This document shows positions 7,647-25,368 of a stretch of 64,000 nucleotides of DNA, in pieces; within the stretch, counting starts at the first letter, position 1, and every line of letters starts with the position of its first letter. The notes under the pieces are model-generated. The model was given only the letters and a program-made list of their open reading frames with translations, had not been told where the DNA came from and searched no databases. The stretch spans positions 17,657-81,656 of the forward strand of contig NZ_DF970238.1 in assembly GCF_000953855.2 (NCBI RefSeq), read 5' to 3'. The DNA comes from Mizugakiibacter sediminis. GTDB lineage: Bacteria; Pseudomonadota; Gammaproteobacteria; Xanthomonadales; Rhodanobacteraceae. The position numbers and the translations under genes were made by a program.

Positions 7647-9293
7647 TCATCCGAACAGCCACTTGAACAGTCGCTCGACCACGCCTGGTTGCTGCGACGG
7701 AGGTTGATAGGTGTGGCGGCCAGGGGAGACAGGGGGCGGAGTCGGCACTGAAGGTCCGGATGAGGCCCGGATCTTTTGGAGTACCTGCGCGTTCGAGGAG
7801 GGGGCTGGAGATGAAGCGCGTGGGCCTGCAGGGCTCGGTGCCGGGCCAGACACGCCCTTGATCTTGTCGAGCGTCTGCTGATTGCTCGTCGTCGCTGCGG
7901 TGAAAGCCCCTGCTGCCCTACCTGCGCCAGCCAAGCGCCATTGCGCCTCCTGCTCCGTGATCGGCGTCATCGTCCCTGCCGCGCCGACGGTGATCGACAG
8001 GTGTGAGTAGCGGAACTTCTTGTTCACGAAGGGTGGCTCCATCAACCCAACGACGCTGACCCACTTGCCAACCCAGGATGCGTCCGGCTTGGACTTCACG
8101 TGTGCCAAACCGTCCGACCAGATCGACACCTTGAAAATGCTGCCTTGCCAGGGGCCGAAGTTGACGAAGATGTAAGGCTTGCCGCCGCGTGTCTTGTCTA
8201 GCTTCACCTCGACAATGCGGCCAATGACTTCGACCTTGTCGCCAACAGCTCTGAGACAGGCCGCATAGTCGGTGGCCGAGAGCACGGGATACGCGCCCAC
8301 GTAGCCCGGTCGGGCCGCGACTGAGATCTGCCCAGCGGTGGGCCTGGGAGGCGCGATGACAATGGGAATGGTGGGAATGTTCCGGCCAGCCAGGAAGTCC
8401 GCCAATTCCGGTGCTCGCGCCATCGGCGACTTGCAGACCGCGGCGAAATTCTTGACGTGGGTTGCGAGGCTGGTGTTCCTGGCAACGAGCGCGAATGCGC
8501 TGGACCCTGCCGGATCGAGGAAGTCGTTGGTACGGAAGAGGATGGCGTCCGCCTCCGAGTTGGTCTTGCTCCAAAGCGATGCGTCCAATTGCAGAGCGCG
8601 GATGGACAGCGACAAGGCGATCAGCGAGAAGCGATCGAGCGACGCATCAAACGGATTAAGGGACTTGCGCTGCGGGTGTTGGAAGTTGACGTGTCCTAGC
8701 TCCGCGCTGCCCAGGTCCTTGATCTCGTCGACGAACATGCCGTCATAGTCGATCAGCTGTACCGAAGAGCCGTCGCGGCTCACCATCAGATTGCCGCTTT
8801 GCAGGTCGCCGTGTGCGATGCCTTCCTTCTGCAAGTAGGCGGCGAGCTTTGCCAATGCGTCCGCGAGACGGCCAAGCGCCGCTGAATTTCTGAGGTTGTC
8901 CTCTAGAAACTCGCCGAGCGTCGTTCCACTCGCCCAGGCCATCTTGACCACCGGATAGGCGGCCCCATTGACTCGGATACCCTACGGCTGAAACTGGAAG
9001 TCCAGGAAGTAGGGCGAGCGCAGACTGGCAAGCTTCTTGGAGATCGCCGCGTAGCGTCGCTCAAGACCCTTGGATTCCCGATGAAAGCAGCGGACAGCAA
9101 ACTTTCCGCGAGCCGTGCTGACCGTGTAGGTCAGAGCGAAGCCTCCGCTGATCGCCAGCGGCAGCCCAAGGCCGCTCTTGGCGAGGGTCCCGGCGCGCAG
9201 CTCAGGGTCCGCGAGCAACGTGCCGTGGGCGGAGAACGCTTGGTTGTACTGCTCAAGGGAGGGGTAAGCCAACTGCGTCCTCCCCAGCCCCAA
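7647..9293 (-). pseudogene. Ser/Thr protein kinase with C-terminal OB-like domain, interrupted by one amber codon
   Basis: One frame runs from an ATG at 9293 to a stop at 7647 (548 codons) but is broken by a single TAG at 8982-8984. The upstream piece (103 codons) encodes the N-lobe start (FALTYTVSTARGKFAVRCFH, with a candidate VAIK-like lysine or arginine). The downstream piece (434 codons from its first ATG at 8951) has the catalytic loop HGDLQSGNLMV and the DFG-like LIDYDG, then at about residues 215-335 an OB-fold-like segment (VEVIGRIVEVKL), and a Pro/Ser-rich tail. The sequence across the TAG aligns smoothly (FQFQP*GIRVNGAAYPVVKM), so one point mutation, for example GAG to TAG, explains it. 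It overlaps the phosphatase gene by 41 bp. The kinase is the third member of a VWA-phosphatase-kinase triad. Confidence 0.8.
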
Positions 9294-10008
9294 ACTTCAA
9301 GATCGCCAAAGTCGAATCGTCGACCCGCATGCGCTTCGCGTCGCGCTCTGCGACGACCAGAGAAGTGAGCTGCTCTGAGCTTCGGATGGCCAGAAGATCG
9401 GCCAACCGCCCCGGATCGTCGCTGGCCATTCGAAGTGTCCACTCCCCAAGCGCGTCGGTCATACAAAGAAGCTTGGGCTCGGGAAATGGTGCCAAGTCCA
9501 ACTCGATACGCGCAAGCGATCCGAAATCGGGCGCCTGCGTGAACTCGTTGTGCGCTCGCAAAGTGGAAAGCAGTGTCGGTCGCTCCTTAAACCTATCCGG
9601 GTGATCCAACGGCCACGCGCGGACAACTTCTACGCCCACCAAAAGCACAGCAACGGAGTCGCCGACCCCAAAGAGCGATAGGCGGTGATTGACGGCGTCG
9701 TGCTCGACGCCGAGCAAGGTGGCGAAGCAGCCGCGCTCGAAAGCGAGCTGCTGCGACCAAGTCATGGCGGCGAAGTCATGCTCAGCCTGATAGGCCGCCA
9801 CTGCGCTCTCGATCCACTCTTGGTCGAAGCGCGGATCGTCTGCAAACTTTCCAGCGAGCAAACGCGCCCAGAGCCGTGAGTCATAGGACTCACTGGCTCC
9901 GTCACTTAGCGCGAGGCGCTGCCGGTCGACGGAGAATGCGTAAGCATCCTCGTTCGTCTCTGGCCTGTCAGGCTCCTTCGCGCAGGTCCCCACGAACAGG
10001 GCCCGCAT
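9253..10008 (-). CDS. PP2C-family protein phosphatase of a TerY-P-like triad
   Basis: A 251-residue cytosolic protein with PP2C metal-site motifs: NEDAYAF at residues 19-25, LSDGASE at 34-40, GVGDSVAVLLV in the middle and DDSTLAILKF near the C terminus. It should remove phosphate from Ser/Thr residues using two bound metal ions. It is 9 bp downstream of the VWA gene and its 3' end overlaps the kinase gene, so the three are probably co-translated. In VWA-phosphatase-kinase triads of this type (described around TerY), the phosphatase and kinase are thought to set the phosphorylation state of the VWA protein or a partner. Confidence 0.85.
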   Translation of the reverse strand: MRALFVGTCAKEPDRPETNEDAYAFSVDRQRLALSDGASESYDSRLWARLLAGKFADDPRFDQEWIESAVAAYQAEHDFAAMTWSQQLAFERGCFATLLGVEHDAVNHRLSLFGVGDSVAVLLVGVEVVRAWPLDHPDRFKERPTLLSTLRAHNEFTQAPDFGSLARIELDLAPFPEPKLLCMTDALGEWTLRMASDDPGRLADLLAIRSSEQLTSLVVAERDAKRMRVDDSTLAILKFGAGEDAVGLPLP

Positions 10009-10017
10009 GGCGTCTGG

Positions 10018-10851
10018 TCAGCGAAGCTGGGACGCGCGCGTGCCAATGTCGAAGAAGTCGACGATCTCGCCGGCCTCAGCATTGAACATGTAGCCTCGCG
10101 ACTCCGGACTCACCGCGTAGCCCTTGTCCTTCGCAAACGCGGCGACGTGTGGAGGCAGCACGCTCGACATCCGAAACAGCATCTTTGCGTAGCTGTCGGG
10201 CAGCCCGGACTCAGAACTCGGGAACTTGATGGTGTCAGAGCCAAGCGCGCTGACATGAATGTTCATCACGACCACCGAGCCGTCATTGGTCCGAAGTTGT
10301 CCCAAGTTTGCGGCGATCTCCTCGGGGTCTCCGTCGCCGGATTCGCCGTCGGTGACGTGCAGAATAGTTGGCGGATAGCTCTCGGGGTGGGCGTCGCACC
10401 AAGCCGCCAGTTCTTCAGCTGCCTTAGTGAGAGCCGCGCGCATGGGCGTTCCTCCGTCGGCGCGAGGCTCAAACCAGACCGGAAACTTCACCGATGTCTC
10501 AACGATGCCGCCCGCTCCATCGTCCATCTTCTTCTTGCGATCCTCCACGCGAGTCGGGTTCTGCTCGATCGCCGACACGGGGTTGAGCACGCGCGCCCCG
10601 AGCGCTCCGGAAAAGCCGTTGTCGACACCGCGCCCGCCGTAGCCGATCACGCCGACCTCAAAGTAATCGCGAACGCCCTCCGCCTTCGTGCAGCGGCCAA
10701 TAAGGTTCATGATGGTACGGTTCAGCGCGTCGGAGACGAATTCCGCCTTGCTCTTGCCGATAGCCATGCGATCCGACATCGAGCCCGACTGGTCCACGAC
10801 GAAGAGGAACGCGGTGGGGTTGTTGCGGCTGATCTGAGCCTCATGCGACAT
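10018..10851 (-). CDS. TerY-like von Willebrand factor A domain protein
   Basis: A 277-residue VWA protein. The metal-ion-dependent adhesion site DQSGSM is at residues 20-25, preceded by the hydrophobic strand AFLFVV; ADGGTPM supplies the Thr of the site, and LHVTDGESGDGDPEEI carries the later Asp. Unlike typical 210-residue TerY it has a C-terminal extension of about 45 residues (AAFAKDKGYAVSPESRGY and onward). It is the first gene of the triad. The sequence upstream is cut by an IS element 87 bp before the start codon, so its original promoter may have been displaced. Confidence 0.85.
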   Translation of the reverse strand: MSHEAQISRNNPTAFLFVVDQSGSMSDRMAIGKSKAEFVSDALNRTIMNLIGRCTKAEGVRDYFEVGVIGYGGRGVDNGFSGALGARVLNPVSAIEQNPTRVEDRKKKMDDGAGGIVETSVKFPVWFEPRADGGTPMRAALTKAAEELAAWCDAHPESYPPTILHVTDGESGDGDPEEIAANLGQLRTNDGSVVVMNIHVSALGSDTIKFPSSESGLPDSYAKMLFRMSSVLPPHVAAFAKDKGYAVSPESRGYMFNAEAGEIVDFFDIGTRASQLR

Positions 10852-12517: not shown

Positions 12518-13447
12518 GTGGATGAGGAACCTTCAGTGACTCAACCCCAGCGCGTCGAGAGCTTGAGCCACGCCCAGCGCGAGCGGCTGGCCTACATCGA
12601 CTTCCGGCTCTACTTCTTCGGTGAGATCGGTCGCCCAGATCTGATTGAGCGCTTCGGCGTGGCGCCGGCAGGGGCGACGCGCGACTTGGCGCTGTACCGG
12701 GAAATCGCGCCGCAGAACATCACCTTTGACGGTAGCCACAAGATCTACCGGATCGGGCAGGCGTTCTCCCCGCTGTTCAACCACGCCCCGCAGCGCGTGC
12801 TGTCGGCGCTGGCGCTGGGCTTCGGCGATGGTGTGAACGGCCCGAATCAGTCCTTGCAGCCGCTGCTGCCGTGCGAGTCGCCCACCGCCCTGAGCAACCC
12901 CAGGATGGATGTGCTGGCTCCGGTCTGCCGGGCGATCCACGCCAAGCGCCCCGTCGCCATTCGCTACCACTCGATGAGCAGCGGTGAATCCGAGCGCGTC
13001 ATCGTTCCGTTCGCACTGGTTGATACCGGCCTGCGCTGGCATGTCCGGGCCTTTGATCGCAAGAGCGGAGAGTTTCGGGACTTCGTCGTCACCCGTATCG
13101 AAGCGCCGACGCTGCTCGACGAGGAGCCACAGGCCTTTGAGCGACCGGAAAACGACATCCAGTGGACGCGCATCGTCGAGCTGGAGTTGGTGCCGCACCC
13201 GCGCCTTGAACACCCCGAGATCATCAGGATGGACTACGGGATGACCGACGGCTCGATCCGGATGCGCGTTCGCGCCGCCGTCGCGGGCTACATGCTGCTG
13301 CGCTGGAGCGTGGACTGCTCGCCCGACCACCGCCTCAAGGAAGAACAGTACCGCCTATGGCTCAGCGATCCGCTGGCGCTGTACGGCGTTGAGAACGCAA
13401 AGCTCGCGCCGGGGTATCAAGCTCCGAGCAGCCCCAAGAAACGATAG
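12518..13447 (+). CDS. WYL-domain transcriptional regulator (BrxR/CapW-like)
   Basis: A 309-residue protein with an N-terminal winged helix (about residues 17-75: RLAYIDFRLYFFGEIGRPDL then IERFGVAPAGATRDL), a central WYL-like SH3-barrel fold (about 135-215: PVAIRYHSMSSGESERVIVP, WHVRAFDRKSGEFRDFV) and a C-terminal WCX-like extension. The start is probably the GTG at 12518; another GTG six codons later is possible. Related regulators sit at the head of BREX, CBASS and restriction islands and bind a palindrome near their own promoter; one is visible at 12444-12458. It precedes the DUF262 gene by 15 bp and should control the operon downstream. Confidence 0.85.
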   Translation: MDEEPSVTQPQRVESLSHAQRERLAYIDFRLYFFGEIGRPDLIERFGVAPAGATRDLALYREIAPQNITFDGSHKIYRIGQAFSPLFNHAPQRVLSALALGFGDGVNGPNQSLQPLLPCESPTALSNPRMDVLAPVCRAIHAKRPVAIRYHSMSSGESERVIVPFALVDTGLRWHVRAFDRKSGEFRDFVVTRIEAPTLLDEEPQAFERPENDIQWTRIVELELVPHPRLEHPEIIRMDYGMTDGSIRMRVRAAVAGYMLLRWSVDCSPDHRLKEEQYRLWLSDPLALYGVENAKLAPGYQAPSSPKKR

Positions 13448-13462
13448 GAAAGAACAAGCGCA

Positions 13463-15196
13463 ATGGCCAAGACACTTGAAGCCCACGACAAGCTGATCCG
13501 GGAGATCTTCGAAGGCAGCTACCAGTTCGAGATTCCGGACTACCAGCGCCCCTACGCCTGGACAACCGAGCAAGCGGGAGAGTTGTTTGATGATCTGGTC
13601 TCCGCTATGCAGGATGCCCGAGCCAACGGGGCCACAAGCCAATACTTCTTGGGCAGCATCGTTCTTATCAAGAACGACCGCGACCCCAAGGCGATGGTCG
13701 TTGACGGCCAGCAGCGACTGACCACGCTCACGATCCTGTTTGCGGCCCTGCGCGCAGCGTGGGAGGCGGCCAACTACCCACCAGGCGTCAAAAGCGTGAC
13801 CCCTTTCCTCTACGAAGAGGGGGACGAGATGCTGGGCAAGGCCACCGGCTACCGATTCACCGCCCGCGAGGAAGATGCGACGTTCTTCCGTCAGTATATC
13901 CAGGAGCCGGGTGGCATCGCACAGTTGGTCGCCAGTACGGACAAGCTGAAAGACAGCCGTCTGCGTTACCGCGAAAACGCCACGCTGCTGCTCGAAAAGG
14001 CCAAGGCCCTGTCGCCTGACGACTTGAATGCCCTGTGGAAATTCCTCGCGAACGACTGCTCCCTGGTCGTCATTTCCACACCCGACCTCGAAGCGGCCTA
14101 CCGCATCTTCTCGGTACTGAACAATCGTGGGCTCGATCTGGCACCCATCGACATCATTAAGGCGGAAGTGCTCGGTTCGATCCGTCGCATCGGCGGGGAG
14201 GACAAGGCGCGCGCCTATTCGAAGAAGTGGAGCGAGATCGAAAGCCAGCTTGGCCGCGACGCTTTCGGCGACCTGTTCGGCCATATCCGCACCATCTACG
14301 CCAAGCAGAAGCAGCGGGCCACGCTGGTCAAGGAGTTCCAGGAGCACGTCACCGAGTACAAGGCCCCCATCGACCTCGTCGACAAGGTCATCAAACCCTA
14401 TGCCGAAGTGTGGGACTTCGTGCGCGATGCCGACTTTGAAGCCACCGAGCACGCCGAGACCATCAATGACTACCTGTCCTGGCTCAACCGCGTGGACTTC
14501 AAGGACTGGGTGCCCCCGGCACTGGTCTATTTCAAGCGCTTCCGGCAGCAGCCCAAATTGCTCGCCGAGTTTTTCAAGTCACTGGAACGCCTGACCTATT
14601 TCCTGCTGGTCACCAAGGTGGGTATCAACGAGCGCATCGAAACCTACGCTGCGCTGACCAAGGAAATCGAGCCGGAGACCTTCAAGGGGGATCTGGCCGC
14701 GCTCACCACGCTGACACTGACTGACGCGCAAAAGCGCAAGTTCGTCGCGGCACTCGATGGCGACGTTTACGACGATCTGCCCAAGGCACGGATGGCGCTG
14801 GTCTTGCGCCTTGAATCCTTGGTGCGCGCCCCCGGCGTGCAGCTCCAAGATGCCGTGTCTCTGGAGCACGTTCTGCCGCAAACCCCGCCCGACGGTTCGG
14901 ACTGGATCAAGTGGTTCCCGGATGAAGACGAGCGCAATGGCTGGACGCACCGTTTGGCCAATCTGGTTCCGCTGGATAGGAAGAAGAACTCGTCTGCCAG
15001 CAACTACGACTTTGCCAAGAAGAAAGACGCCTACTTCAGAGGTAAGGGCACTGCATCACCATTCGTGCTGACGCAGGAAGTCAGATCGGAAAAAGAATGG
15101 ACGCCCACGCTCCTGGCCGAGCGCCAGAAACGCCTTGTAGGCGTCCTCAAAGACCATTGGAATCTCGCCGTCTCCACAGGCACGGCGGCGAGCTGA
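13463..15196 (+). CDS. DUF262/DUF1524 nuclease (GmrSD/BrxU/SspE-like)
   Basis: A 577-residue protein. The N-terminal DUF262 domain shows IPDYQRPYAW at residues 24-33 and DGQQRLT at 81-87, the ParB-like nucleotide-binding motif of GmrS. The C-terminal DUF1524 domain has LEHVLPQ around H469 and NLVPLDRKKNSSASN downstream, the His-Me finger (HNH-like) nuclease site. Proteins with both domains restrict modified or modification-sensed phage DNA (GmrSD, BrxU, SspE). Its place between the regulator and hsdM suggests either a companion type IV activity or an accessory part of this type I system. It ends 11 bp before hsdM. Confidence 0.85.
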   Translation: MAKTLEAHDKLIREIFEGSYQFEIPDYQRPYAWTTEQAGELFDDLVSAMQDARANGATSQYFLGSIVLIKNDRDPKAMVVDGQQRLTTLTILFAALRAAWEAANYPPGVKSVTPFLYEEGDEMLGKATGYRFTAREEDATFFRQYIQEPGGIAQLVASTDKLKDSRLRYRENATLLLEKAKALSPDDLNALWKFLANDCSLVVISTPDLEAAYRIFSVLNNRGLDLAPIDIIKAEVLGSIRRIGGEDKARAYSKKWSEIESQLGRDAFGDLFGHIRTIYAKQKQRATLVKEFQEHVTEYKAPIDLVDKVIKPYAEVWDFVRDADFEATEHAETINDYLSWLNRVDFKDWVPPALVYFKRFRQQPKLLAEFFKSLERLTYFLLVTKVGINERIETYAALTKEIEPETFKGDLAALTTLTLTDAQKRKFVAALDGDVYDDLPKARMALVLRLESLVRAPGVQLQDAVSLEHVLPQTPPDGSDWIKWFPDEDERNGWTHRLANLVPLDRKKNSSASNYDFAKKKDAYFRGKGTASPFVLTQEVRSEKEWTPTLLAERQKRLVGVLKDHWNLAVSTGTAAS

Positions 15197-15207
15197 GGAA
15201 CGTATCG

Positions 15208-17586
15208 ATGCAGAAGAAGCAACAACAAGACCAAAGCCAGATCAAGTGGATCTCCGACTTCATCTGGAACATCGCGGACAACCGACTGCGCGATGTTTAT
15301 GTGCGCGGCAAGTATCGCGACGTCATCCTGCCCTTTACCGTGCTTCGGCGTCTTGACGCCGTGCTGGAGGAGACCAAGCAGAAGGTGCTGGAGCGCAAGC
15401 GCTTCCTCGACAAGAACAACGTCGCCGAGCAGGACGGAGCCCTGCGGATGGCTGCAGGGCAGGCGTTCTACAACGTCTCCGAGTTCACGCTCGCCACGCT
15501 CAAGGCCAGCAGCCAGGGCCAGCGCCTGCGGGAGGACTTCATTGCCTACCTCGATGGCTTCTCACCGAACGTCCAGGAGATCCTCACCAAGTTCAAGTTC
15601 CGCGACCAGATTCAGACGCTGGTGGATGCGCATGTTCTGGGCTACTTGATCGAAGACTTTCTCGACCCCGAGATCAACCTGTCGCCGCTACCGGTCAAGG
15701 ACGCCGACGGCCGCATCAAGCTGCCCGCGCTGGACAACCACGGCATGGGCACCGTGTTCGAAGAGCTGATCCGCCGCTTCAACGAGGAAAACAACGAAGA
15801 GGCCGGTGAGCACTTCACGCCGCGCGATGTCGTCAAACTGATGGCCAAGCTGATGTTCTTGCCGGTGGCCGATCAGATCCAGTCCGGCACCTACCTGCTC
15901 TACGACGGCGCCTGCGGCACGGGGGGCATGTTGACCGTTGCCGAGGAGACCTTGCGGGAGCTGGCCGAGGAACACGGCAAGGAGGTCTCCATCCACCTGT
16001 TCGGCCAGGAGATCAACCCCGAGACCTACGCCATCTGCAAGGCCGACCTGCTGCTCAAGGGCGAAGGCGACGAGGCGGAGCACATCGTCGGCGGTGCCGA
16101 CAAATCGACCCTATCGGCCGATCAGTTCCGTTCCCGCGAGTTCGACTTCATGATCTCCAACCCGCCCTACGGCAAGAGCTGGAAGACCGATTTCGAGCGC
16201 ATGGGCGGCAAGCAGGGTTTCAACGACCCGCGCTTCATCGTCAGCCACGGCGGTGATCCGGAGTTCAAGCTCATCACCCGCACGAGCGACGGGCAGCTCA
16301 TGTTCCTGGTGAACAAGCTGCAAAAGATGAAGCGGCACTCGCCGCTGGGCAGCCGCATCGCCATCGTTCACAACGGCTCGGCCCTGTTCACGGGCGATGC
16401 CGGCCAGGGTGAGAGCAACATCCGGCGCTGGATACTGGAAAACGACTGGCTGGAAGCCATCATCGCGCTGCCGCTCAACATCTTCTACAACACCGGCATC
16501 GCCACCTACGTCTGGGTGCTCGCCAACCGCAAGCCCGAGCACCGCAAGGGCAAGGTGCAATTGATCGACGCCAGCCAGTGGTTTCAGCCGCTGCGCCGTA
16601 ACCTTGGCAAGAAAAACTGCGAATTGTCCGAGGCCGACATCCAGCGCATCGTCGATCTCTACCTCGGGCCACCGCAGGACACGCCGCAGTGCAAATGGTT
16701 CGACACCACCGACTTTGGCTACTGGAAGATCACCGTCGAACGCCCGCTGCGGCTCAAAAGCCAGCTCAAGCGCAGCGCCATTGAGAGCCTGCGCTTCGCC
16801 AGCGGCGATGAGGCCCTGCGCGCCGAGATCTGGGCCAAGTACGGCGACAGGCTCTACGCCGAGTTCCCCAAGCTCAAGCCCGAGATCGAGGCGTGGCTGA
16901 AGGGCGATACCGGGGAAGAGAACGACGATGCGGAAGGCGATGAGGACGAGGGTACGCCCGCGAAGAAGGCGGTGCCCGAGAAGCGCCGCAAGAAACTGCT
17001 CGATTTCGCCACCTGGCAACGCGACAAGACCCTGATCGAGCTGGCGCTGCTCGCGCAGCAAGAGCTCGGCGACGGCGTGTTCGACGACCACAACGAGTTC
17101 CGCGCCCGCTTCGAGGCGGTCATGGCCAAGCACGGCAAGAAGCTCGCCGCCGCCGAAAAGAAGGCCATCTTCAAGGCCGTGAGCTGGCGTGACGAAACGG
17201 CGCCACCGGTGATTGCCAAGCGCACCAAGCTGAAAAAGGACGAGCCCTTCGAGCCGGGGCTCGACGGCGTGTACCTCGAGGTGGCGGGCAAAGACCGCTT
17301 CCTGGTCGAGTACGAGCCAGACACCGACTTGCGCGATACCGAGCAGGTGCCGCTGAAAGAGCCCGGCGGCATCGATGCCTTCTTCCGGCGTGAGGTGCTG
17401 CCCCACGCGCCGGACGCCTGGGTTGCGCGCGAGGCCACCAAGATCGGCTACGAGATCTCCTTTGCCCGCTACTTCTACAAGCCCGCGCCGCTGCGCTCGC
17501 TGGAGGAGATTCGCGCAGACATCCTCAAACTGGAACAGCAGACCGAAGGACTGTTGCAAAAGATCATTGGAGGGGTGCCGGCATGA
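15208..17586 (+). CDS. hsdM: Type I restriction-modification methyltransferase subunit HsdM
   Basis: A 792-residue protein; the ATG at 15208 is chosen because TGAGGA lies about 10 nt upstream, whereas the open frame extends further 5' into the DUF1524 gene. Residues 1-150 form the HsdM N-terminal helical domain (SQIKWISDFIWNIADNRLRD). The methyltransferase core has motif I DGACGTGGM at 233-241 and motif IV NPPY at 318-321, the signature of N6-adenine methylation. The C-terminal 220 residues are an unusually long charged extension (EENDDAEGDEDEG then KKAVPEKRRKK), making it larger than the usual 480-550 residue HsdM. Its stop overlaps the next start as ATGA. Confidence 0.95.
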   Translation: MQKKQQQDQSQIKWISDFIWNIADNRLRDVYVRGKYRDVILPFTVLRRLDAVLEETKQKVLERKRFLDKNNVAEQDGALRMAAGQAFYNVSEFTLATLKASSQGQRLREDFIAYLDGFSPNVQEILTKFKFRDQIQTLVDAHVLGYLIEDFLDPEINLSPLPVKDADGRIKLPALDNHGMGTVFEELIRRFNEENNEEAGEHFTPRDVVKLMAKLMFLPVADQIQSGTYLLYDGACGTGGMLTVAEETLRELAEEHGKEVSIHLFGQEINPETYAICKADLLLKGEGDEAEHIVGGADKSTLSADQFRSREFDFMISNPPYGKSWKTDFERMGGKQGFNDPRFIVSHGGDPEFKLITRTSDGQLMFLVNKLQKMKRHSPLGSRIAIVHNGSALFTGDAGQGESNIRRWILENDWLEAIIALPLNIFYNTGIATYVWVLANRKPEHRKGKVQLIDASQWFQPLRRNLGKKNCELSEADIQRIVDLYLGPPQDTPQCKWFDTTDFGYWKITVERPLRLKSQLKRSAIESLRFASGDEALRAEIWAKYGDRLYAEFPKLKPEIEAWLKGDTGEENDDAEGDEDEGTPAKKAVPEKRRKKLLDFATWQRDKTLIELALLAQQELGDGVFDDHNEFRARFEAVMAKHGKKLAAAEKKAIFKAVSWRDETAPPVIAKRTKLKKDEPFEPGLDGVYLEVAGKDRFLVEYEPDTDLRDTEQVPLKEPGGIDAFFRREVLPHAPDAWVAREATKIGYEISFARYFYKPAPLRSLEEIRADILKLEQQTEGLLQKIIGGVPA

Positions 17587-18617
17587 GTGAGCGCCAAACC
17601 CTGCTGACGGCCATCGCGCAGACGATTCAGGACTACCGCGACGGATCACTACCAAAGCCGATCACCGACCATGTCGACCGCTGGGTGCAGCAGTTCGATG
17701 TCGGCGTGCAGCTTCCGATCCTGCGCGAGGTGGATCATGTCCTGAAGAACACCTATTTCTCGAAAGAGAAGGTGTCGGAGTTCCTCCGTGGGGCAATCCT
17801 CACGGCCAAGCTCACGGGCCCAAACCCCAAGGAGTTCTGGCGGTCCGCAAACTTCCTGGACATCCAGGGCGGCGGTGCCAGTCAGACCGACATGCTCGCC
17901 TTGTTCTCGGAGGTGCTCCGAGAGGAATTCGGCATCGGCATCGAAGATTGCGGCCAGGGCAACGATGTCTTTATCTACCTTGATGACGGCATCTTCACCG
18001 GCAATCGGGTGAGGCGCGATCTGGAAGGTTGGGTGCGCGACCTGGCTCCTGCGCAGGCAACGGTGCATGTGATCTGCATCGCGCTGCACAGCGGCGGGCA
18101 GTACTACGCGAACGGCAGGATTCAGACAGCCGTGAAAGCGGCTGGCAAGAAGGTCGACATCACCTGGTGGCGTGCCATCGAGCTGGAGGATCGCCGGGCC
18201 TACAGCGCGTCTGCAGACGTGCTGCGCCCCACGGCGATCCCGGACGACCAAGCAGTGCGGGATTACGTGGCGGGTATGAAGTACCAGCCGACGCTGCGCG
18301 CACCCGGCAGCCCTGGCAATGCCGGCTTGTTCTCCAGCGACGCGGCCAAGATTCTGCTGGAGCAGGAGTTCCTGAAAGCCGGCGTCCGCATTCGGCAGAT
18401 GTGCCCGAACCTCGGCGACACGCAGCGCCCGCTAGGGCACATGACGCTGGAAACGCTGGGCTTCGGCTCGCTCATCGTGACCTACCGCAACTGTCCCAAC
18501 AATGCGCCGCTGGCGTTCTGGGTGGACGCGCCGTGGTACCCGCTGTTCCCCCGAACCACGAACACGCAGACGGCTGTGCGAAGGATGTTCGCGGACTTGA
18601 CTGGGGGCGGGCTTTGA
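17583..18617 (+). CDS. Phosphoribosyltransferase-like protein (PRTase-CE type)
   Basis: A 344-residue protein. After about 120 helical residues, FIYLDDGIFTGNRV (about 130-143) matches the PRPP-binding loop of phosphoribosyltransferases (hydrophobic strand, two acids, then the small-residue T-G turn). The following VHVICIALHSGG strand fits the next beta strand of the fold. PRTase-like domains of this kind have been predicted by Aravind and colleagues to act in conflict systems. It sits between hsdM and hsdS, overlapping hsdM by ATGA and the NADAR-HsdS gene by TGATG. Substrate and reaction are unknown; the tight coupling with a NADAR domain suggests they act on the same nucleotide or nucleic acid chemistry. 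Confidence 0.6.
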   Translation: MSERQTLLTAIAQTIQDYRDGSLPKPITDHVDRWVQQFDVGVQLPILREVDHVLKNTYFSKEKVSEFLRGAILTAKLTGPNPKEFWRSANFLDIQGGGASQTDMLALFSEVLREEFGIGIEDCGQGNDVFIYLDDGIFTGNRVRRDLEGWVRDLAPAQATVHVICIALHSGGQYYANGRIQTAVKAAGKKVDITWWRAIELEDRRAYSASADVLRPTAIPDDQAVRDYVAGMKYQPTLRAPGSPGNAGLFSSDAAKILLEQEFLKAGVRIRQMCPNLGDTQRPLGHMTLETLGFGSLIVTYRNCPNNAPLAFWVDAPWYPLFPRTTNTQTAVRRMFADLTGGGL

Positions 18618-20821
18618 TGAGCAGCCGAGATCAAGTCCGCACCTACAGCCGCGCCGAAAGCGTCGTCTTCCTGAAGACCGACGAGCCGTTTGGCGGCCTC
18701 TCGAACATGGCCGGGGGCTACCCCATTCGTGTGAATGGCATTCGCATCCTTACGTCCGAGGCGCTGTACCAAGCTTGCCGGTTTCCGCACCTGCCCGACG
18801 TGCAGCGCATGATCATCAGCGAGAACAGCCCGATGACGGCCAAGATGCGGAGCAAGCCTTACCGCAAGGACTCGCGTCGGGATTGGGATCACGTCCGCGT
18901 CCGCATCATGCGCTGGTGTCTGCGGATGAAGCTTGCCAACAACTGGAGTGCGTTCAGCGAGCTACTGCTCCGGACCGGTGACCGACCGATTGTGGAGGAG
19001 TCTCGAAAGGACGACTTCTGGGGCGCCAAGGCCGTTGGCGATGGCAGCACGCTGGTGGGCATGAACGTGCTCGGTCGGCTGCTGATGGAACTGCGCGAGC
19101 AGGTGAAAGAACACGGCCGTGATGCCTTCCTGCGTGTTGAGTTGCCTGATGTTCCAGACTTTCAGTTGCTCGGCCGCCCGATTGAGGTCTGGACCTTGAA
19201 AGAGGCCGTCGCCCTGGCAACGCCGCAGCCTGGGCTATTTGGTGATGACCTGCCGAGCGTTCAAACGGCGGCCGTCCCTGCATCAGCAACCTTGACCCCG
19301 CAAATGAGTGGGCAGCTATCGAAACCCGATGCGTTGAAAGTAGAGGGGGAAGCCGACTGCGCCACGCCGGTTCGCCCTGCTGAGGCGGGTGACCAGGCGA
19401 GCGCTTATCCGAGCTACCGAGACTCAGGCCTTCCCTGGGCTCCAAAGATACCTGAAGGCTGGCAAGTGCTGCGCAATGGCCGGCTCTTTAGCCACCGCGT
19501 GGAGACTGGCTTCCCCGACTTACCTATCCTGGAGGTATCGCTGCGCACCGGCGTTCGGGTCAGGGACATGGAGAACCTGAAACGCAAGCAGGTCATGAGC
19601 CAGAAGGAAAAGTACAAGCGCGCAGCCAAGGGCGACATCGCCTACAACATGATGCGCATGTGGCAAGGCGCGGTTGGCGTGGCCCCGGTGGATGGGCTGG
19701 TCAGCCCGGCCTACGTGGTGGTCAAGCCGTACCCGGAAGCCAACTCGGCGTACTTCAGCTACCTGTTCCGGACCAGCGCCTACATGCGCGAGGTCAACAA
19801 ATTCTCGCGTGGCATCGTGGCGGACCGCAATCGGCTCTATTGGGAGTCGTTCAAGCAAATGCCGTCCCTGGTGCCCCCGCGCGCCGAGCAAGACCAGATC
19901 GTCGCCTACCTGCGCGCGCAGGACGCGCACATCGCCCGCTTCATCAAGGCCAAGCGCGAGCTCATCAAACTGCTGACCGAACAGAAGCTGCGCATCATCG
20001 ACCACGCCGTCACGCGCGGGCTTGACCCCAACGTCCGCCTCAAACCCACCGGCATCGAATGGCTGGGCGAGGTGCCGGAGCATTGGGAGGTCGCTCTCAT
20101 TAAGCACATCGCGGACGTGCGCTTCAGCGGCGTCGATAAGCACTCGCACAACGATGAAATGCCCGTGCGCCTGTGCAACTACACCGATGTCTACAAGAAC
20201 GACCGCATCACCGAAGATATGGACCTGATGCGCGCCACAGCGACGGCTGCGGAAATCGCCCGCCTGACGCTGAAAGCGGGTGATGTCATTTTGACCAAGG
20301 ATTCGGAAACCCCGGACGACATTGGCGTACCCGCATGGGTGCCGGAGGATTTACCCGGTGTGGTTTGCGCCTATCACCTTGGCCTGCTGCGCCCCATACC
20401 GGAACGTGTGTTGGGCGAGTTCCTGTTTCGTGCTATTGGATCAGCGCGTACTGCGCAACAGTTTCACGTTTTAGCCACCGGCGTCACGCGCTTTGCACTC
20501 AGCAAGCACGATGTGAAGAACGCAGTCATCGCGTTGCCACCCATCGAAGAACAGCAAACCATCTGCCGCTGGATCACCGACGAGTGCCAGCCGCTGGACG
20601 GTGCCATCGCCCGCGCCGAAGAGGAAATCAAGCTGATCCGCGAGTACCGCGACCGCCTGATTGCCGATGTGGTGACCGGCCAGATCGACGTGCGCGGCTG
20701 GCGGCCAGGGCCGGATGACGTGGCGAGCGATGTGGAACTGGCCGCACTGGGGGGTGAGGAGGAAAATACCGGAGAAGAAGATTTGCACGAGGAGACTGCG
20801 TCATGGCCGACATGCACTTGA
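18617..20821 (+). CDS. hsdS: NADAR-HsdS fusion: type I specificity subunit with N-terminal NADAR domain
   Basis: The ATG at 18617 overlaps the upstream stop (TGATG) and gives 734 residues; the open frame upstream is a shadow. Residues of about 15-165 form a NADAR (YbiA-like) domain: [27 protein letters not shown] with E48, [32 protein letters not shown] with DDFWG, and [14 protein letters not shown] Pro/Ala-rich linker (about 205-262) leads to a standard Hsd[21 protein letters not shown] starts target-recognition domain 1, and a second half starts at the FKPTG(I)[12 protein letters not shown]-type segment. HsdS normally has 400-450 residues and starts directly with the first half. NADAR enzymes cleave N-glycosidic bonds, including ADP-ribose from guanine, so this subunit may couple sequence recognition with a deglycosylation step. 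Confidence 0.88.
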
Positions 20822-21252
20822 CCCAGGCCGAGGCGGACGCCTTGCTTGCGATGGCCAAACACCGCAGCGACGAGGAGCGCTACGACTTTCCGATGGGCGG
20901 GCAAAGCCTTTCCATTCCTCTGCGCTCTCATGACCATCGCGAGCACTTTCTGCTGGACCTGCACCGTGCACGTATCAATCTGGCCAAGGTGAAGTTTCAG
21001 AGCCGCGCCCGTCAGGTCGTGGTGCTGGCGCGTCTGGACCTGGGCGGCGCGCCGCATCGAAACCCGGATGACACGGAAGTTCCGGCGCCGCATTTGCATC
21101 TTTACCGTGAAGGCTACGGCCACCGATGGGCCTACCCGGTGCCAGCCGAGCGGTTCCGTGATGTGGCCGATCTGTGGCGGACGCTGGAGGACTTCATGGC
21201 TTACTGCAACATCGTCGAGCCGCCCATCATCGAGCGAGGGTTGTTCACATGA
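20803..21252 (+). CDS. Small conserved protein paired with a DUF1829 protein (DUF6978-like)
   Basis: A 149-residue soluble protein overlapping the 3' end of hsdS by 19 bp and the next gene by ATGA. It begins with an acidic helix ([20 protein letters not shown]), has a central strand-rich part ([19 protein letters not shown]) and a conserved-looking [20 protein letters not shown] block, typical of the small partner that accompanies DUF1828/DUF1829 proteins. The family name is from memory and should be treated as tentative. The pair looks like a two-gene cassette embedded in the restriction operon, possibly a toxin-antitoxin-like or antiphage unit. Confidence 0.6.
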
Positions 21253-22013
21253 TCGCTGACATTCAAGGCCTGGTGGACGCCTATCACGCTTGGCTGAAGG
21301 ACAAGACCGTCCTCAAGCAGATCAACGATTGGGTGGAGATCACCACGCCGTATCTCGACCGCCACAACGACTACATCCAGATCTATGCGCGCCGGGATGA
21401 CGGCGGCGTGCTGCTGACCGACGACGGCTACACGCTGGAAGACCTGCGCGACAGCGGCTGCAAGCTGGATTCTCCCAAGCGGCAGGCGCTGCTGCGGCAA
21501 ACGCTCAACGGCTTTGGTGTGCAGTTGTCCGGAGATCGGATTGAAGTGCACGCGACGCCGGAGAACTTTGCCTTGCGCAAGCACAATCTGGTGCAGGCCA
21601 TGCTGGCGGTGGGGGATATGTTCTATCTCGCCGTGCCACTCGTGGCGAGCTTGTTCTACGAGGATGTGGTGGCCTGGCTGGACCTGCACGATGTGCGCTA
21701 TACGACGAATGTCAAGTTTTCGGGCAAGTCGGGCTTTGATCACCGCTTCGACTTCGTGATCCCGAAATCCCGCCGCCAGCCGGAAAGGGTGTTGCAGGCC
21801 ATCAACCGCCCCCGGCGCGATGCTGCTCAGGCGATCGCTTTCTCGTGGATCGACACGAAAGAAACGCGGCCCGCGGAGTCACGCGCGATTGCGTTGCTCA
21901 ATGATTCGGAGCAGAGCGTTTCCGGAGACATTCTGGATGCTTTGCGCAATTACGACGTGCGCCCAGTGCTTTGGAGCCAGCGAGAAACCGTGGTCGAGGA
22001 GTTGGCCGCATGA
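21249..22013 (+). CDS. DUF1828/DUF1829 domain protein
   Basis: A 254-residue protein from the ATG at 21249, whose A overlaps the preceding TGA. The N-terminal DUF1828 part shows [20 protein letters not shown] followed by [20 protein letters not shown], and the C-terminal DUF1829 part shows [20 protein letters not shown] and [14 protein letters not shown]. The second half has the spacing of a restriction-endonuclease-like fold (D-x-FDF strand), but no classical ExK is obvious. Function unknown. It is followed by a HigA-like gene with an ATGA overlap. Confidence 0.75.
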
Positions 22014-22306
22014 GTGGCATCGAGACCGGGGCACCGTTTGCGCCCGATTGGGTGTCTCCGCCAGGCGACACCATTGCCGATGTGCTGGTGGAGCGCGGCT
22101 GGTCGTGCGCTGAGCTGGCCCGCCGCATGGGCTGTGCTGAAACGCATATCAGCCAGATCATCAACGGCGAAGCCCGTATCACCGAAGAGACGGCCTCCGG
22201 TTTGGCGCGGGTCATTGGCAGCACCGCAAGCTTTTGGTTGCGAAAAGAAGCTGCATACCGCGCACGACTGTCCGTGCGCACTGACGACACAGGAGCTGGG
22301 CAATGA
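22010..22306 (+). CDS. HigA-like XRE-family HTH protein
   Basis: A 98-residue protein with the HigA/VapI antitoxin layout: [20 protein letters not shown] followed by [21 protein letters not shown] (the helix-turn-helix) and [18 protein letters not shown]. The start overlaps the DUF1829 stop by ATGA and its own stop overlaps the hsdR start by ATGA. No HigB-type toxin is beside it; the DUF1828/1829 pair directly upstream is the only candidate partner. It could also regulate the operon from within. Confidence 0.85.
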
Positions 22307-25300
22307 TTGCCACGGACACCAGCGAAAAAGGCCTCGAAGCCCTGATCGTGCGGCATCTCGCTGGCATCAGCGAGCATCCTCCAGTTTCTTCCGGTTCCGC
22401 ACAAGAACCGACCGGCATTTATGCCCCCGGCGGCTATGTGTTGGGGCGGGCGTCGGACTACAACCGCGACCTGGCGCTGGACGTGGTCCAGTTGCTCGCC
22501 TTTCTGCGGGCGACTCAGCCGAAGGTGGTCGAGACGCTGAACCTGGACGCCGAAGGCATTCAGCGCACCCAGTTCCTGCACAGGTTGCAGGGCGAAATTT
22601 CCAAGCGCGGCGTGGTGGACGTGCTGCGCAAAGGGGTCAGCCACGGGCCGGTCCACGTGGACCTCTACAAGCTGTTGCCCACCCCAGGCAACGCCGCCGC
22701 GGCCGAGTCCTTCGGCAAGAACATTTTCAGCGTCACCCGGCAGGTGCGCTACAGCAACGACGAGTCCCAGCGCGCGCTGGACATGGTGATCTTCATCAAC
22801 GGCTTGCCGGTGCTCACCTTCGAGCTGAAGAACTCGCTGACCAAACAGACTGTTGCGGACGCTGTGGTGCAGTACCAGACCGACCGCAACCCGGGTGAGC
22901 TGCTGTTTCAGCTCGGCCGCTGCATTGCCCACATGGCAGTGGACGATGCCGAGGTGCGCTTCTGCACGCACCTGACTGGCAAGACCTCCTGGTTCCTGCC
23001 GTTCAACCAGGGTTGGAACAGCGGCGCCGGCAATCCACCGAACCCTCATGGCCTGAAGACCGACTACCTCTGGAAGCAGGTGTTGGCAAAGGAGTCGCTG
23101 GCCAACATCATCGAGAACTTCGCTCAGGTGGTGGAGGAGGAAGAGCAAGACGCCAGCGGCCGCAAGCGCAAGACGCGCAAGCAGATCTTCCCCCGATACC
23201 ACCAACTGCGCACGGTGCGCGCCTTGCTGCGCCGCAGCCGTGTGGATGGTGTCGGCAAGCGCTACCTGATTCAGCACTCAGCCGGCAGCGGCAAGAGCAA
23301 CACGATTGCCTGGCTGGCGCACCAGTTGGTCGAGCTGAAAACGGATGCGGGGCGGGCGCAGTTCGACTCCGTCATCGTCATCACCGATCGGCGAGCGCTG
23401 GACACGCAGATTGCCCGCACGATCAAGTCCTACGACCACGTGGCTTCGATCTACGGCCATTCGGAAAGCGCCGAGGAGCTGCGCACCTTCCTGCGCCGCG
23501 GCAAGAAAATCATCGTCACCACGGTGCAGAAGTTTCCGTTCATCCTGGACGAGCTGGAGGACCTCGGCGACAAGAAGTTCGCGCTGCTGATCGACGAGGC
23601 CCACTCCAGCCAGGGCGGCAAGACGACGGCCAAGATGCATCTGGCGCTGTCCGGACACAATGCTGAGGGCGGCGAGGAGGAAGAGGAGGAATCGGTCGAG
23701 GACAAGGTCAACGCCTTGATCGAGTCTCGCAAGATGCTGGCCAATGCCAGCTACTACGCCTTCACGGCCACGCCCAAGACCAAGACCCTGGAGCTGTTCG
23801 GCGAGCGCCAAGTGGTTGGCGACACGGTGCAGTTCCGTTCGCCCGAAGAGCTGACGTACACCACCAAGCAGGCGATTCAGGAGGGTTTCATCCTCGACGT
23901 GATCGCCAACTACACCCCGGTGGCGAGCTTTTATCACGTCGCCAAGATCGTCGAGCACGACCCGGAGGTGGACAAGGCCAAGGCGCTCAAGAAGATCCGG
24001 CGCTACGTGGAGTCCCACGACAAGGCGATCCGTCGCAAGGCGGAGATCATGGTCGATCATTTTGTCGAGCAGGTGATCGGCGCCAAGAAGATCGGCGGCA
24101 AAGCGCGGGCGATGATCGTCTGCAACGGCATCGCCCGGGCCATCGACTACTTCCGCGAGGTTTCGGACTACCTCACCGAGATCAAGAGCCCGTACAAGGC
24201 CATCGTGGCGTACTCCGGCGAGTTTGAGATCGGCGGGTCAAAGAAGACCGAGGCCGATCTCAACGGATTCCCGAGCAAGGACATTCCGGCCAAGCTCAGG
24301 CAAGACCCGTATCGATTCCTGATCGTCGCGAACAAGTTCGTCACGGGCTTCGACGAGCCGCTGTTGCACACGATGTACGTGGACAAGCCGCTGGCGGGCG
24401 TCCTGGCCGTGCAGACACTCTCGCGACTGAACCGCGCGCATCCGCAGAAGGCGGACACGTTCGTGCTCGACTTCGCCGACAACGCGGAGGCCGTCAAGGC
24501 GGCGTTCCAAGAGTACTACCGTGCCACGATCCAGGAAGGTGAGACCGATCCGAACAAGCTCCACGACCTGAAGAGCGATCTGGACGCACAGCAGGTCTAC
24601 AGCTGGCAGCAGGTCGAAGACCTCGTCGCGCAGTACCTTGGCGGAGCTGAGCGGGATCAGCTCGACCCAATCCTCGATGCCTGCGTCGCGGAATACGTCG
24701 AAAAGCTCGCTGAGGACGACCAGGTGAAATTCAAGGGCAAGGCGAAAGCCTTCGTCCGCAGCTACGGCTTTCTCGCGGCCATCCTGCCCTATGGGCATCC
24801 GGCATGGGAGAAGCTGTCGATCTTCCTCAACTTCCTGATTCCGAAGCTGCCTGCGCCCAAGGAGGAGGATCTGTCCAAGGGCGTGCTGGAAGCCATCGAC
24901 ATGGACAGCTACCGCGCTCAGGCCCAGGCTTCGATGCGGATGGCAATGGACGATGCGGACGCATTCGTCGAACCCCCACCGCCGGGAGGTGGTGGAGGTG
25001 GCGGCGAGCCAGAGCTGGACAGGCTGTCGAACATCATCAAGCAGTTCAATGACCTGTTCGGCAACATCGAGTGGCATGACGCCGACAAGATTCGCAAGGT
25101 CGTCACCGAAGAGATTCCGGCGCGCGTGGCGCAGGACAAGGCTTACCAGAACGCGCAGGCCAATTCGGGCAAGCAGAACGCGAGGCTGGAGCACGACAAG
25201 GCGCTCAACCGCGTGGTGCTGGAGCTGCTCGACGACCATACAGAGCTCTTCAAGCAGTTCAGCGACAACCCGAATTTCAAGCGCTGGCTGGCGGACATGG

Positions 25301-25368
25301 TGTTCGATTCGACCTACCGCCCAGGACAGAAGCCGTCGGTTCCGCCTCAATCGGGCGCTCAGGCCTGA
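22303..25368 (+). CDS. hsdR: Type I restriction endonuclease subunit HsdR
   Basis: A 1021-residue protein. The N-terminal nuclease site is D160 with E174-L-K176 in VLTFELKN, the PD-(D/E)XK residues of HsdR. The translocase follows with Walker A SAGSGKSNT at 326-334, DEAH at 431-434 (LLIDEAHSSQGG), motif III around FTATPKTKT, and the RecA-like second domain ending with VQTLSRLNRAHPQK. The C-terminal region is helical with a Pro/Gly-rich loop (EPPPPGGGGGGGEPEL) and binds the HsdM/HsdS complex in this family. It cleaves unmodified DNA after ATP-driven translocation. It is in one operon with hsdM and hsdS, and all motifs look intact. Confidence 0.95.
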   Translation: MIATDTSEKGLEALIVRHLAGISEHPPVSSGSAQEPTGIYAPGGYVLGRASDYNRDLALDVVQLLAFLRATQPKVVETLNLDAEGIQRTQFLHRLQGEISKRGVVDVLRKGVSHGPVHVDLYKLLPTPGNAAAAESFGKNIFSVTRQVRYSNDESQRALDMVIFINGLPVLTFELKNSLTKQTVADAVVQYQTDRNPGELLFQLGRCIAHMAVDDAEVRFCTHLTGKTSWFLPFNQGWNSGAGNPPNPHGLKTDYLWKQVLAKESLANIIENFAQVVEEEEQDASGRKRKTRKQIFPRYHQLRTVRALLRRSRVDGVGKRYLIQHSAGSGKSNTIAWLAHQLVELKTDAGRAQFDSVIVITDRRALDTQIARTIKSYDHVASIYGHSESAEELRTFLRRGKKIIVTTVQKFPFILDELEDLGDKKFALLIDEAHSSQGGKTTAKMHLALSGHNAEGGEEEEEESVEDKVNALIESRKMLANASYYAFTATPKTKTLELFGERQVVGDTVQFRSPEELTYTTKQAIQEGFILDVIANYTPVASFYHVAKIVEHDPEVDKAKALKKIRRYVESHDKAIRRKAEIMVDHFVEQVIGAKKIGGKARAMIVCNGIARAIDYFREVSDYLTEIKSPYKAIVAYSGEFEIGGSKKTEADLNGFPSKDIPAKLRQDPYRFLIVANKFVTGFDEPLLHTMYVDKPLAGVLAVQTLSRLNRAHPQKADTFVLDFADNAEAVKAAFQEYYRATIQEGETDPNKLHDLKSDLDAQQVYSWQQVEDLVAQYLGGAERDQLDPILDACVAEYVEKLAEDDQVKFKGKAKAFVRSYGFLAAILPYGHPAWEKLSIFLNFLIPKLPAPKEEDLSKGVLEAIDMDSYRAQAQASMRMAMDDADAFVEPPPPGGGGGGGEPELDRLSNIIKQFNDLFGNIEWHDADKIRKVVTEEIPARVAQDKAYQNAQANSGKQNARLEHDKALNRVVLELLDDHTELFKQFSDNPNFKRWLADMVFDSTYRPGQKPSVPPQSGAQA

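Follow-up and report, generated by a model that had tools for sequence, protein, structure and literature searches.

Results

A PRTase and a NADAR-HsdS fusion within a type I restriction-modification operon

We analysed a 64,000-nucleotide stretch of the Mizugakiibacter sediminis genome (assembly GCF_000953855.2, contig NZ_DF970238.1, positions 17,657 to 81,656 of the forward strand; hereafter the window), in which a phosphoribosyltransferase-like (PRTase-like) gene lies between hsdM and a gene encoding a NADAR domain fused to HsdS. The genes of the operon run in the order WYL, GmrSD, HsdM, PRTase, NADAR-HsdS, DUF6978, DUF1828/1829, HTH and HsdR (Table 1), and the presence of HsdM, HsdS and HsdR within one operon, as assigned with Pfam and PADLOC, identifies a type I restriction-modification (R-M) system. 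An earlier reading, made from the sequence alone (the sequence-only reading), had placed the PRTase-like open reading frame (ORF) in overlap with both of its neighbours. Indeed, its ATG overlaps the hsdM stop codon as ATGA, and its own TGA (18615-18617) overlaps the ATG of NADAR-HsdS (18617-18619; ORF 18617-20821) as TGATG.

The product of 17583-18617 is a PRTase-CE protein with a PRTase fold. The profile search that the sequence-only reading had proposed gave a match to PF24390 over the full profile (E=3.4e-61, 207.8 bits against a cut-off of 27; profile positions 1-253 of 253), and NF053875 (DS32_1_antiphage) scored 424.6 bits against a cut-off of 250. An AlphaFold2 (AF2) model built with 63 relatives had a pLDDT of 93.8. 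When this model was compared by VIA-align, all 50 rows listed were of the PRTase fold, which disposes of the unrelated structure that had been named as a possible refutation; uracil PRTase and PyrR led the rows, the best match being 1o5o_B (Z 9.6, rmsd 3.3 over 124 residues), with 9-19% identity in the top ten. Foldseek was weak with the same model (best E 7.2e-3, no match at E ≤0.001), and when PDB was searched with a profile of the PRTase alignment the sole match was an EF-hand protein at E 0.036 and no PRTase was recovered, so that the fold is settled by the AF2 model and VIA-align. A DarT-family ADP-ribosyltransferase was considered as the effector and excluded, since the only Pfam family is PRTase-CE and the fold is that of a PRTase.

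The protein contains the string IYLDDGIFTGN, and residues 132-142 (YLDDGIFTGNR) resemble the loop that binds phosphoribosyl pyrophosphate (PRPP). Within this loop D134, D135 and G140 are kept in all 114 PRTases compared and S/T139 in 111 of them. The usual PRPP motif ends in a threonine; the position of that last threonine is occupied by R or K in 110 of the 114.

The N-terminal part of the fusion protein matches NADAR (PF08719, 2.3e-24, residues 18-163) and NF053876 (DS32_2_antiphage; 283.2 bits, cut-off 240, residues 8-189), and its C-terminal part matches PADLOC Specificity_I (370 bits over residues 261-698) and Methylase_S (PF01420, 8.3e-10). An AF2 model of the whole fusion, built from five sequences, was poor (pLDDT 48.9) and was not used. 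Both members of the pair exceed the equivalog cut-offs of DS32_1 and DS32_2, families that carry an anti-phage name in NCBIfam, and they lie in the order PRTase then NADAR. The profiles therefore show the window pair to be a DS32-type anti-phage module, which is to say that the pair had already been named, a point beyond the sequence-only reading.

The PRTase and NADAR genes share one history

Among the best 80 of 171 matches to the PRTase in genomes, NADAR lies directly after it in 79, as it does in all 33 viral loci; this adjacency rules out the pair as a one-off insertion. The single PRTase locus without a NADAR (L084) is on a contig that stops 81 bases past the PRTase ORF. The two genes overlap at 64 of 97 distinct PRTase/NADAR junctions, and at another 32 they are 0-20 nt apart. 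Distances between PRTases agree with those between NADARs (r=0.885 over 110 pairs, a value that none of 2000 permutations reached; L037, L196, L002 and L061 had been dropped from the trees), so the two genes share one history. In one locus (L059:6995-10733) two PRTase-CE genes stand in tandem and are followed by a NADAR-DUF4365 fusion.

The sequence-only reading held that all three genes, hsdM included, are coupled. This stands for PRTase and NADAR but not for hsdM, which lies more than 30 nt from the PRTase in 16 of 35 hsdM loci (window counted), mostly with a gene of ~1.8 kb in between; this gene is GmrSD-like at both loci where it was checked (L030 and L036). Another locus (L011:5008-8540) has SIR2-like (by eye) and HerA-like ATPase genes between hsdM and PRTase-NADAR-HsdS in its ORF list. 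Nonetheless, no locus with hsdM and PRTase but lacking NADAR, the arrangement proposed as a refutation, was found where the contig allowed a check.

The pair is sparsely distributed. Three of 398 genomes of the phylum contain the PRTase, and the same three hold the only NADARs above 100 bits, which are adjacent to it and score 291-365 bits; the next-best NADAR of the 398 genomes reaches 95.5 bits. In 5,426 E. coli genomes there are two types of pair, present in 43 and 19 genomes (at least 80% coverage), and at the three loci examined these lie in lambdoid prophages, between the gene for replication protein P and ybcN/ninE. A search of 50,697 phage records gave no PRTase match.

NADAR is fused to more than one kind of DNA-acting subunit

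Of 114 distinct complete pairs, 67 have a NADAR that stands alone (at least two of these, L037 and L061, are cut by contig ends). In the others NADAR is part of a fusion, its partner being HsdS (39 pairs), a DUF1156 methylase (5), DUF4365 (1) or an unnamed tail (2). Both settings in which the sequence-only reading had suggested looking for the pair, beside hsdM and without hsdS, are represented; since most pairs stand alone, the idea that the pair is specific to restriction loci was rejected. In the DUF1156 fusions (L039, L049, L055, L057 and L161) NADAR forms the N terminus of the methylase and the PRTase gene lies just upstream. L057, the one tested, is an Hma system, with matches to HmaA, HmaB and HmaC, and its DUF1156 methylase is of the HmaB type.

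The fusion to HsdS follows the PRTase. In viral contigs searched from HsdM, HsdS was seen in 36 of 45 loci, 4 with a PRTase and 32 without. NADAR is present on HsdS in all four of the former, compared with none of the latter, where HsdS is plain; a NADAR-HsdS without PRTase was looked for and not seen. On the PRTase tree strong branches force at least six changes in the state of the HsdS fusion, and on the NADAR tree two; both trees come from quick searches and their branches are long. Support for several independent fusions is good on the former tree and weaker on the latter. NADAR has been joined to DNA-acting subunits on more than one occasion (HsdS in 39 and DUF1156/HmaB in 5 of 114), and this suggests that bacteria repeatedly wire PRTase-NADAR defence into restriction machinery.

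A signature arginine in PRTase-coupled NADARs

Mapping onto the NADAR of P. nicotianae identified E48, R55, E127, D132 and W135 in the window protein. E48 and R55 are kept in all 113 readable PRTase-coupled NADARs, and E127 and W135 in all 112. Hence the equivalents of E43 and E125 of the P. nicotianae enzyme are retained (as E48 and E127), whereas the lysine equivalent to K50 has become arginine. This phosphate-binding position is arginine in 113 of 113 readable PRTase-coupled NADARs, but lysine in all 18 ordinary cellular NADARs that could be read there (22 compared, of which 4 were unreadable). Passages of PMC11543638 report that the substrate of known NADARs is ADP-ribosylated guanine in DNA and that, in another NADAR, a K95R substitution kept activity in vitro but lost rescue. 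The conserved lysine-to-arginine change points to an altered NADAR substrate, and would fit a product other than ordinary ADP-ribosyl-guanine. The abstract and passages of a NADAR survey (PMC11125620) describe four E. coli subtypes and no PRTase-coupled one.

Lone NADARs in large viruses and PRTase-CE with other partners

Starting from NADAR, a PRTase was found in 34 of 42 loci; of the other eight, L165 lies at a contig edge. Seven viral contigs of 130-500 kb carry lone DS32-like NADARs (L171-L174 and L193-L195; L171 and L173 have the same protein), two of which were tested on DS32_2 and scored 232 and 216 bits, slightly under the cut-off of 240. The signature arginine is present in L171/L173, L172, L174 and L194, and lysine in L193 and L195; a named relative belongs to Dolichospermum phage Dfl-JY45 (46%). 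The lone NADARs of large phages are possible counter-defences against DS32 pairs, and those of very large phages would come ready-made. In cells, lone NADARs were common among the ordinary ones but not in the DS32-like subfamily. In one large viral contig (L193:3886-5603) a GmrSD_N gene overlaps the DS32-like NADAR gene, giving NADAR another partner.

Within the class, PRTase-CE exceeds the Pfam cut-off in 6 of 369 genomes. Besides the window, these loci comprise two with HsdM-PRTase-NADAR-HsdS (L242 and L244), a plain pair (L243) and two in which NADAR is absent. One of the latter has a methyltransferase, PRTase-CE and an ORC-CDC6-like ATPase (PF24389) in a row (L245:5275-9327); the other has a PRTase with a reverse transcriptase (L246; PF24390 89.5 bits, PADLOC PRTase_III-A 319.5 bits). 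Since PRTase-CE occurs without NADAR in retron-like and ORC-CDC6-like loci, it resembles an effector whose controller can be exchanged, NADAR being the controller in this branch. For the same reason, the earlier statement that the two enzymes perform opposite chemistries at the same bond was too strong.

Setting of the operon

The operon occupies the end of a prophage, with endolysin and tail genes downstream on the opposite strand, and the ORF list gives more phage-type ORFs in the rest of the window. A related operon is present on two viral contigs (L005 and L006). DUF1829 has been newly tied to defence by DefensePredictor, according to passages of PMC13092281, and the PDC-M24A/B genes (20803-22013) lie within the R-M operon. 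Elsewhere in the window, on the minus strand (8982-10851), are side-by-side ORFs that by eye in the ORF list are kinase-like, PP2C-like and vWA-like and resemble a TerY-type phosphorylation set.

Table 1. Genes and domains of the operon, in window coordinates
Feature	Position	Strand	Evidence
WYL-domain protein, probable first operon gene	12518..13447	+	PF13280 1.5e-14
GmrSD-type (DUF262/DUF1524) accessory protein, upstream of hsdM	13463..15196	+	GmrSD_N 2.9e-38, GmrSD_C 4.4e-23
HsdM, type I DNA methyltransferase	15208..17586	+	N6_Mtase 6.1e-55, HsdM_N 1.1e-23
PRTase-CE protein, DS32_1-type, 344 aa	17583..18617	+	PF24390, NF053875, AF2, fold comparison
NADAR domain, DS32_2-type, N-terminal ~residues 1-200 of NADAR-HsdS fusion	18617..19216	+	PF08719, NF053876
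HsdS part, ~residues 261-734 of NADAR-HsdS; two target-recognition regions	19397..20821	+	PADLOC Specificity_I, PF01420
DUF6978 protein (PADLOC candidate PDC-M24A), overlaps NADAR-HsdS end	20803..21252	+	PF22398 3.4e-47; PDC-M24A 200 bits
DUF1828/DUF1829 protein (PADLOC candidate PDC-M24B)	21252..22013	+	PF08862/PF08861; PDC-M24B 358 bits
HTH regulator	22010..22306	+	HTH_3 3.4e-9
HsdR, restriction subunit	22303..25368	+	HSDR_N, SWI2_SNF2, T1R_D3-like

Discussion

A proposed effector and antidote under the watch of the restriction complex

From the identity, fold, pairing and fusions of these proteins, and the conservation of their active sites, we infer a toxic partner, its chemistry and its trigger. 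Our preferred model, to which we assign a probability of about 0.48, is that the PRTase is an effector and NADAR its antidote, with the R-M complex holding the effector in check as a second line behind restriction. The PRTase would use PRPP or a similar ribosyl-pyrophosphate, placing a (phospho)ribosyl group on the nucleobase of a nucleotide or nucleic acid, and the product would be toxic or would block phage replication. NADAR would act as an enzymatic antidote by hydrolysing the base-ribose N-glycosidic bond of that product. Since the antidote is fused to HsdS, an intact HsdM-HsdS complex on the DNA would keep the effector inactive; a phage that disables the complex (with anti-restriction proteins or DNA mimics) or outruns it would release the PRTase, and the infection would be aborted. 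Such an arrangement would work like PrrC behind EcoprrI, with base ribosylation replacing tRNA cleavage. Our best reading may also be worded differently, with the PRTase guided by the restriction complex instead of held in check.

Several observations favour the effector-antidote model. Besides the DS32 profile scores, the shared history and joint occurrence of the two genes, the presence of NADAR on HsdS only where there is a PRTase, the repeated fusions and the conserved residues of both proteins, the PRTase was not seen alone where flanks allow, lone DS32-like NADARs occur on the seven viral contigs, PRTase-CE is found beside a reverse transcriptase and an ORC-CDC6-like ATPase, and the DprA-PRTase pair protects against T7 and lambda, as passages of PMC9122126 report. 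Other observations weigh against it. In 6 of the 39 HsdS fusions K takes the place of D132, whose counterpart in another NADAR contacts pyrophosphate. The existence of PRTase-CE without NADAR in other systems means that NADAR is not generally needed to undo PRTase action, and, because most pairs are without an R-M partner, the R-M trigger cannot be a general one. An insertion sequence (IS) is found only in the PRTase, never in NADAR, in 3 of ~62 E. coli genomes, which are too few to count, two of the three being near-identical; in these cases NADAR is intact (L275 of E. coli 23CRST001, and ETEC1732 and ETEC1734, H79 and H80), and the reverse case, an IS in NADAR with an intact PRTase, was absent among the E. 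coli rows listed. Finally, sections 5 and 6 and further passages of the DefensePredictor text (PMC13092281) are silent on the working of a PRTase-NADAR pair, and its DS-5 serves there as a warning against taking every two-gene defence pair for a toxin-antitoxin. The sequence-only reading, which had offered an effector and antidote under the control of a restriction system, is in this light partly supported overall: effector and antidote fit best, whereas restriction control is the exception, as 67 of 114 pairs are alone.

Alternative explanations

The pair could instead write and erase a physiological DNA mark, the PRTase adding a ribosyl-type group and NADAR-HsdS removing it at sites chosen by HsdS; the mark would add a further layer of modification to the R-M system, with no toxin involved. 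Fusion of NADAR to DNA-recognition or DNA-modifying subunits (HsdS and HmaB) would suit this explanation, as would the action of known NADARs on ADP-ribosylated guanine in DNA. However, in 67 of the 114 distinct pairs nothing that recognises DNA is fused to NADAR, relatives of PRTase-CE are found without NADAR in an ATPase system and a retron-like locus, and NCBIfam names the family anti-phage. We regard a physiological mark as unlikely.

We think it just as unlikely that the two proteins form a signalling pair, in which the PRTase would turn a base, possibly one set free from modified phage DNA, into a small nucleotide-like signal that NADAR would degrade or be switched by. In fold the PRTase is nearest to the regulator PyrR and to enzymes of base salvage, and passages of PMC7824862 propose a signal role for a PRTase in the Ter system. 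Yet it is the pair alone that travels, and no separate signal-binding effector is evident beside the standalone pair in six annotated loci and in the ORF list of L012.

Somewhat less probable again is an eraser aimed by HsdS. Here the PRTase would poison any DNA by ribosylating its bases, and NADAR-HsdS, brought to its sites by the recognition that also directs methylation, would clean self DNA and not that of the phage, an arrangement that would have been reinvented with HmaB. NADAR-HsdS might also serve as a counter-counter-defence, shielding host DNA and the R-M enzyme from ADP-ribosylation by phage, beside a PRTase that is an unrelated effector. A host Macro/NADAR role against phage ADP-ribosylation has been proposed for other neighbourhoods in passages of PMC9503650, but NADAR never appears on HsdS without a PRTase (0/32) and the two share a tree, so we regard this as improbable. 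Least probable of all is a housekeeping or salvage role (the PRTase rebuilding NAD+ or nucleotides depleted by effectors of phage or host, NADAR clearing damaged intermediates and the fusion being an accident of operon shuffling), for although NADAR also reaches TIGR02464, the riboflavin N-glycosidase model (76.5 bits, cut-off 73.7), the pair is patchy on prophages and plasmids, has a low prevalence (3/398 genomes), has been fused repeatedly to R-M parts, and carries an arginine in place of lysine that none of the 18 readable ordinary NADARs shares.

Implications

Passages of PMC9122126 describe as unknown the chemistry by which PRTase effectors act in bacterial immunity, and the systems concerned are retron III-A, DprA-PRTase and DS32. 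The grafted forms place the action of the putative NADAR antidote on DNA, within an R-M complex, and together with the lysine-to-arginine signature they make the question of chemistry testable with few experiments. If the restriction complex does guard the effector, phages that disarm restriction would trigger a second weapon; if the eraser is aimed instead, self would be told from non-self through a reversible base-ribosyl mark.

Comparison with known systems

The PRTase-NADAR module is already known, but we found no publication on its fusion into restriction complexes. The literature searched, as far as its accessible passages go, gave no description of NADAR fused to HsdS or HmaB in PRTase pairs, and searches on PRTase-CE and calcineurin-CE returned nothing useful. 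Compared with the DS32 pair, the window has the same gene order and tight spacing, but it lies within an operon for type I R-M and its NADAR is joined to HsdS, whereas the E. coli pairs examined are standalone in lambdoid prophages. The DS32 of the models is presumably the DS-32 of DefensePredictor (PMC13092281), passages of which label validated systems DS-n and mention a PRTase in the legend of Fig. 4; 'DS-32' is absent from the text searched, and for that reason we infer the link between model and paper.

DarT1-NADAR (DarTG1) is likewise an operon of an effector and a NADAR, and the window NADAR keeps the equivalents of E43, E125 and W133 given in passages on that system. In contrast, the window effector has a PRTase fold and is not an ADP-ribosyltransferase, and the lysine essential there is arginine in the window. 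PRTase effectors of type III-A retrons share Pfam family PF24390 with the window, as established for the retron-like L246 alone; DprA-PRTase of P2-like phages is likened by description. Neither system has a NADAR, the partner being a reverse transcriptase or DprA. The window is not itself a type III-A retron: no reverse transcriptase was found among the ten operon genes scanned, and PADLOC PRTase_III-A reaches 35 bits, over the C-terminal part.

Hma (helicase, methylase, ATPase) is an R-M-like system that differs from the type I system of the window, and it offers a parallel in L057, where HmaB has an N-terminal NADAR and a PRTase gene upstream. The likeness to PrrC and EcoprrI is that an effector gene lies in an hsd operon, with silencing by the R-M complex proposed in passages of PMC2610378. 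PrrC, however, cuts tRNA and has no fused antidote, whereas in the window a separate, putatively catalytic antidote is fused to HsdS.

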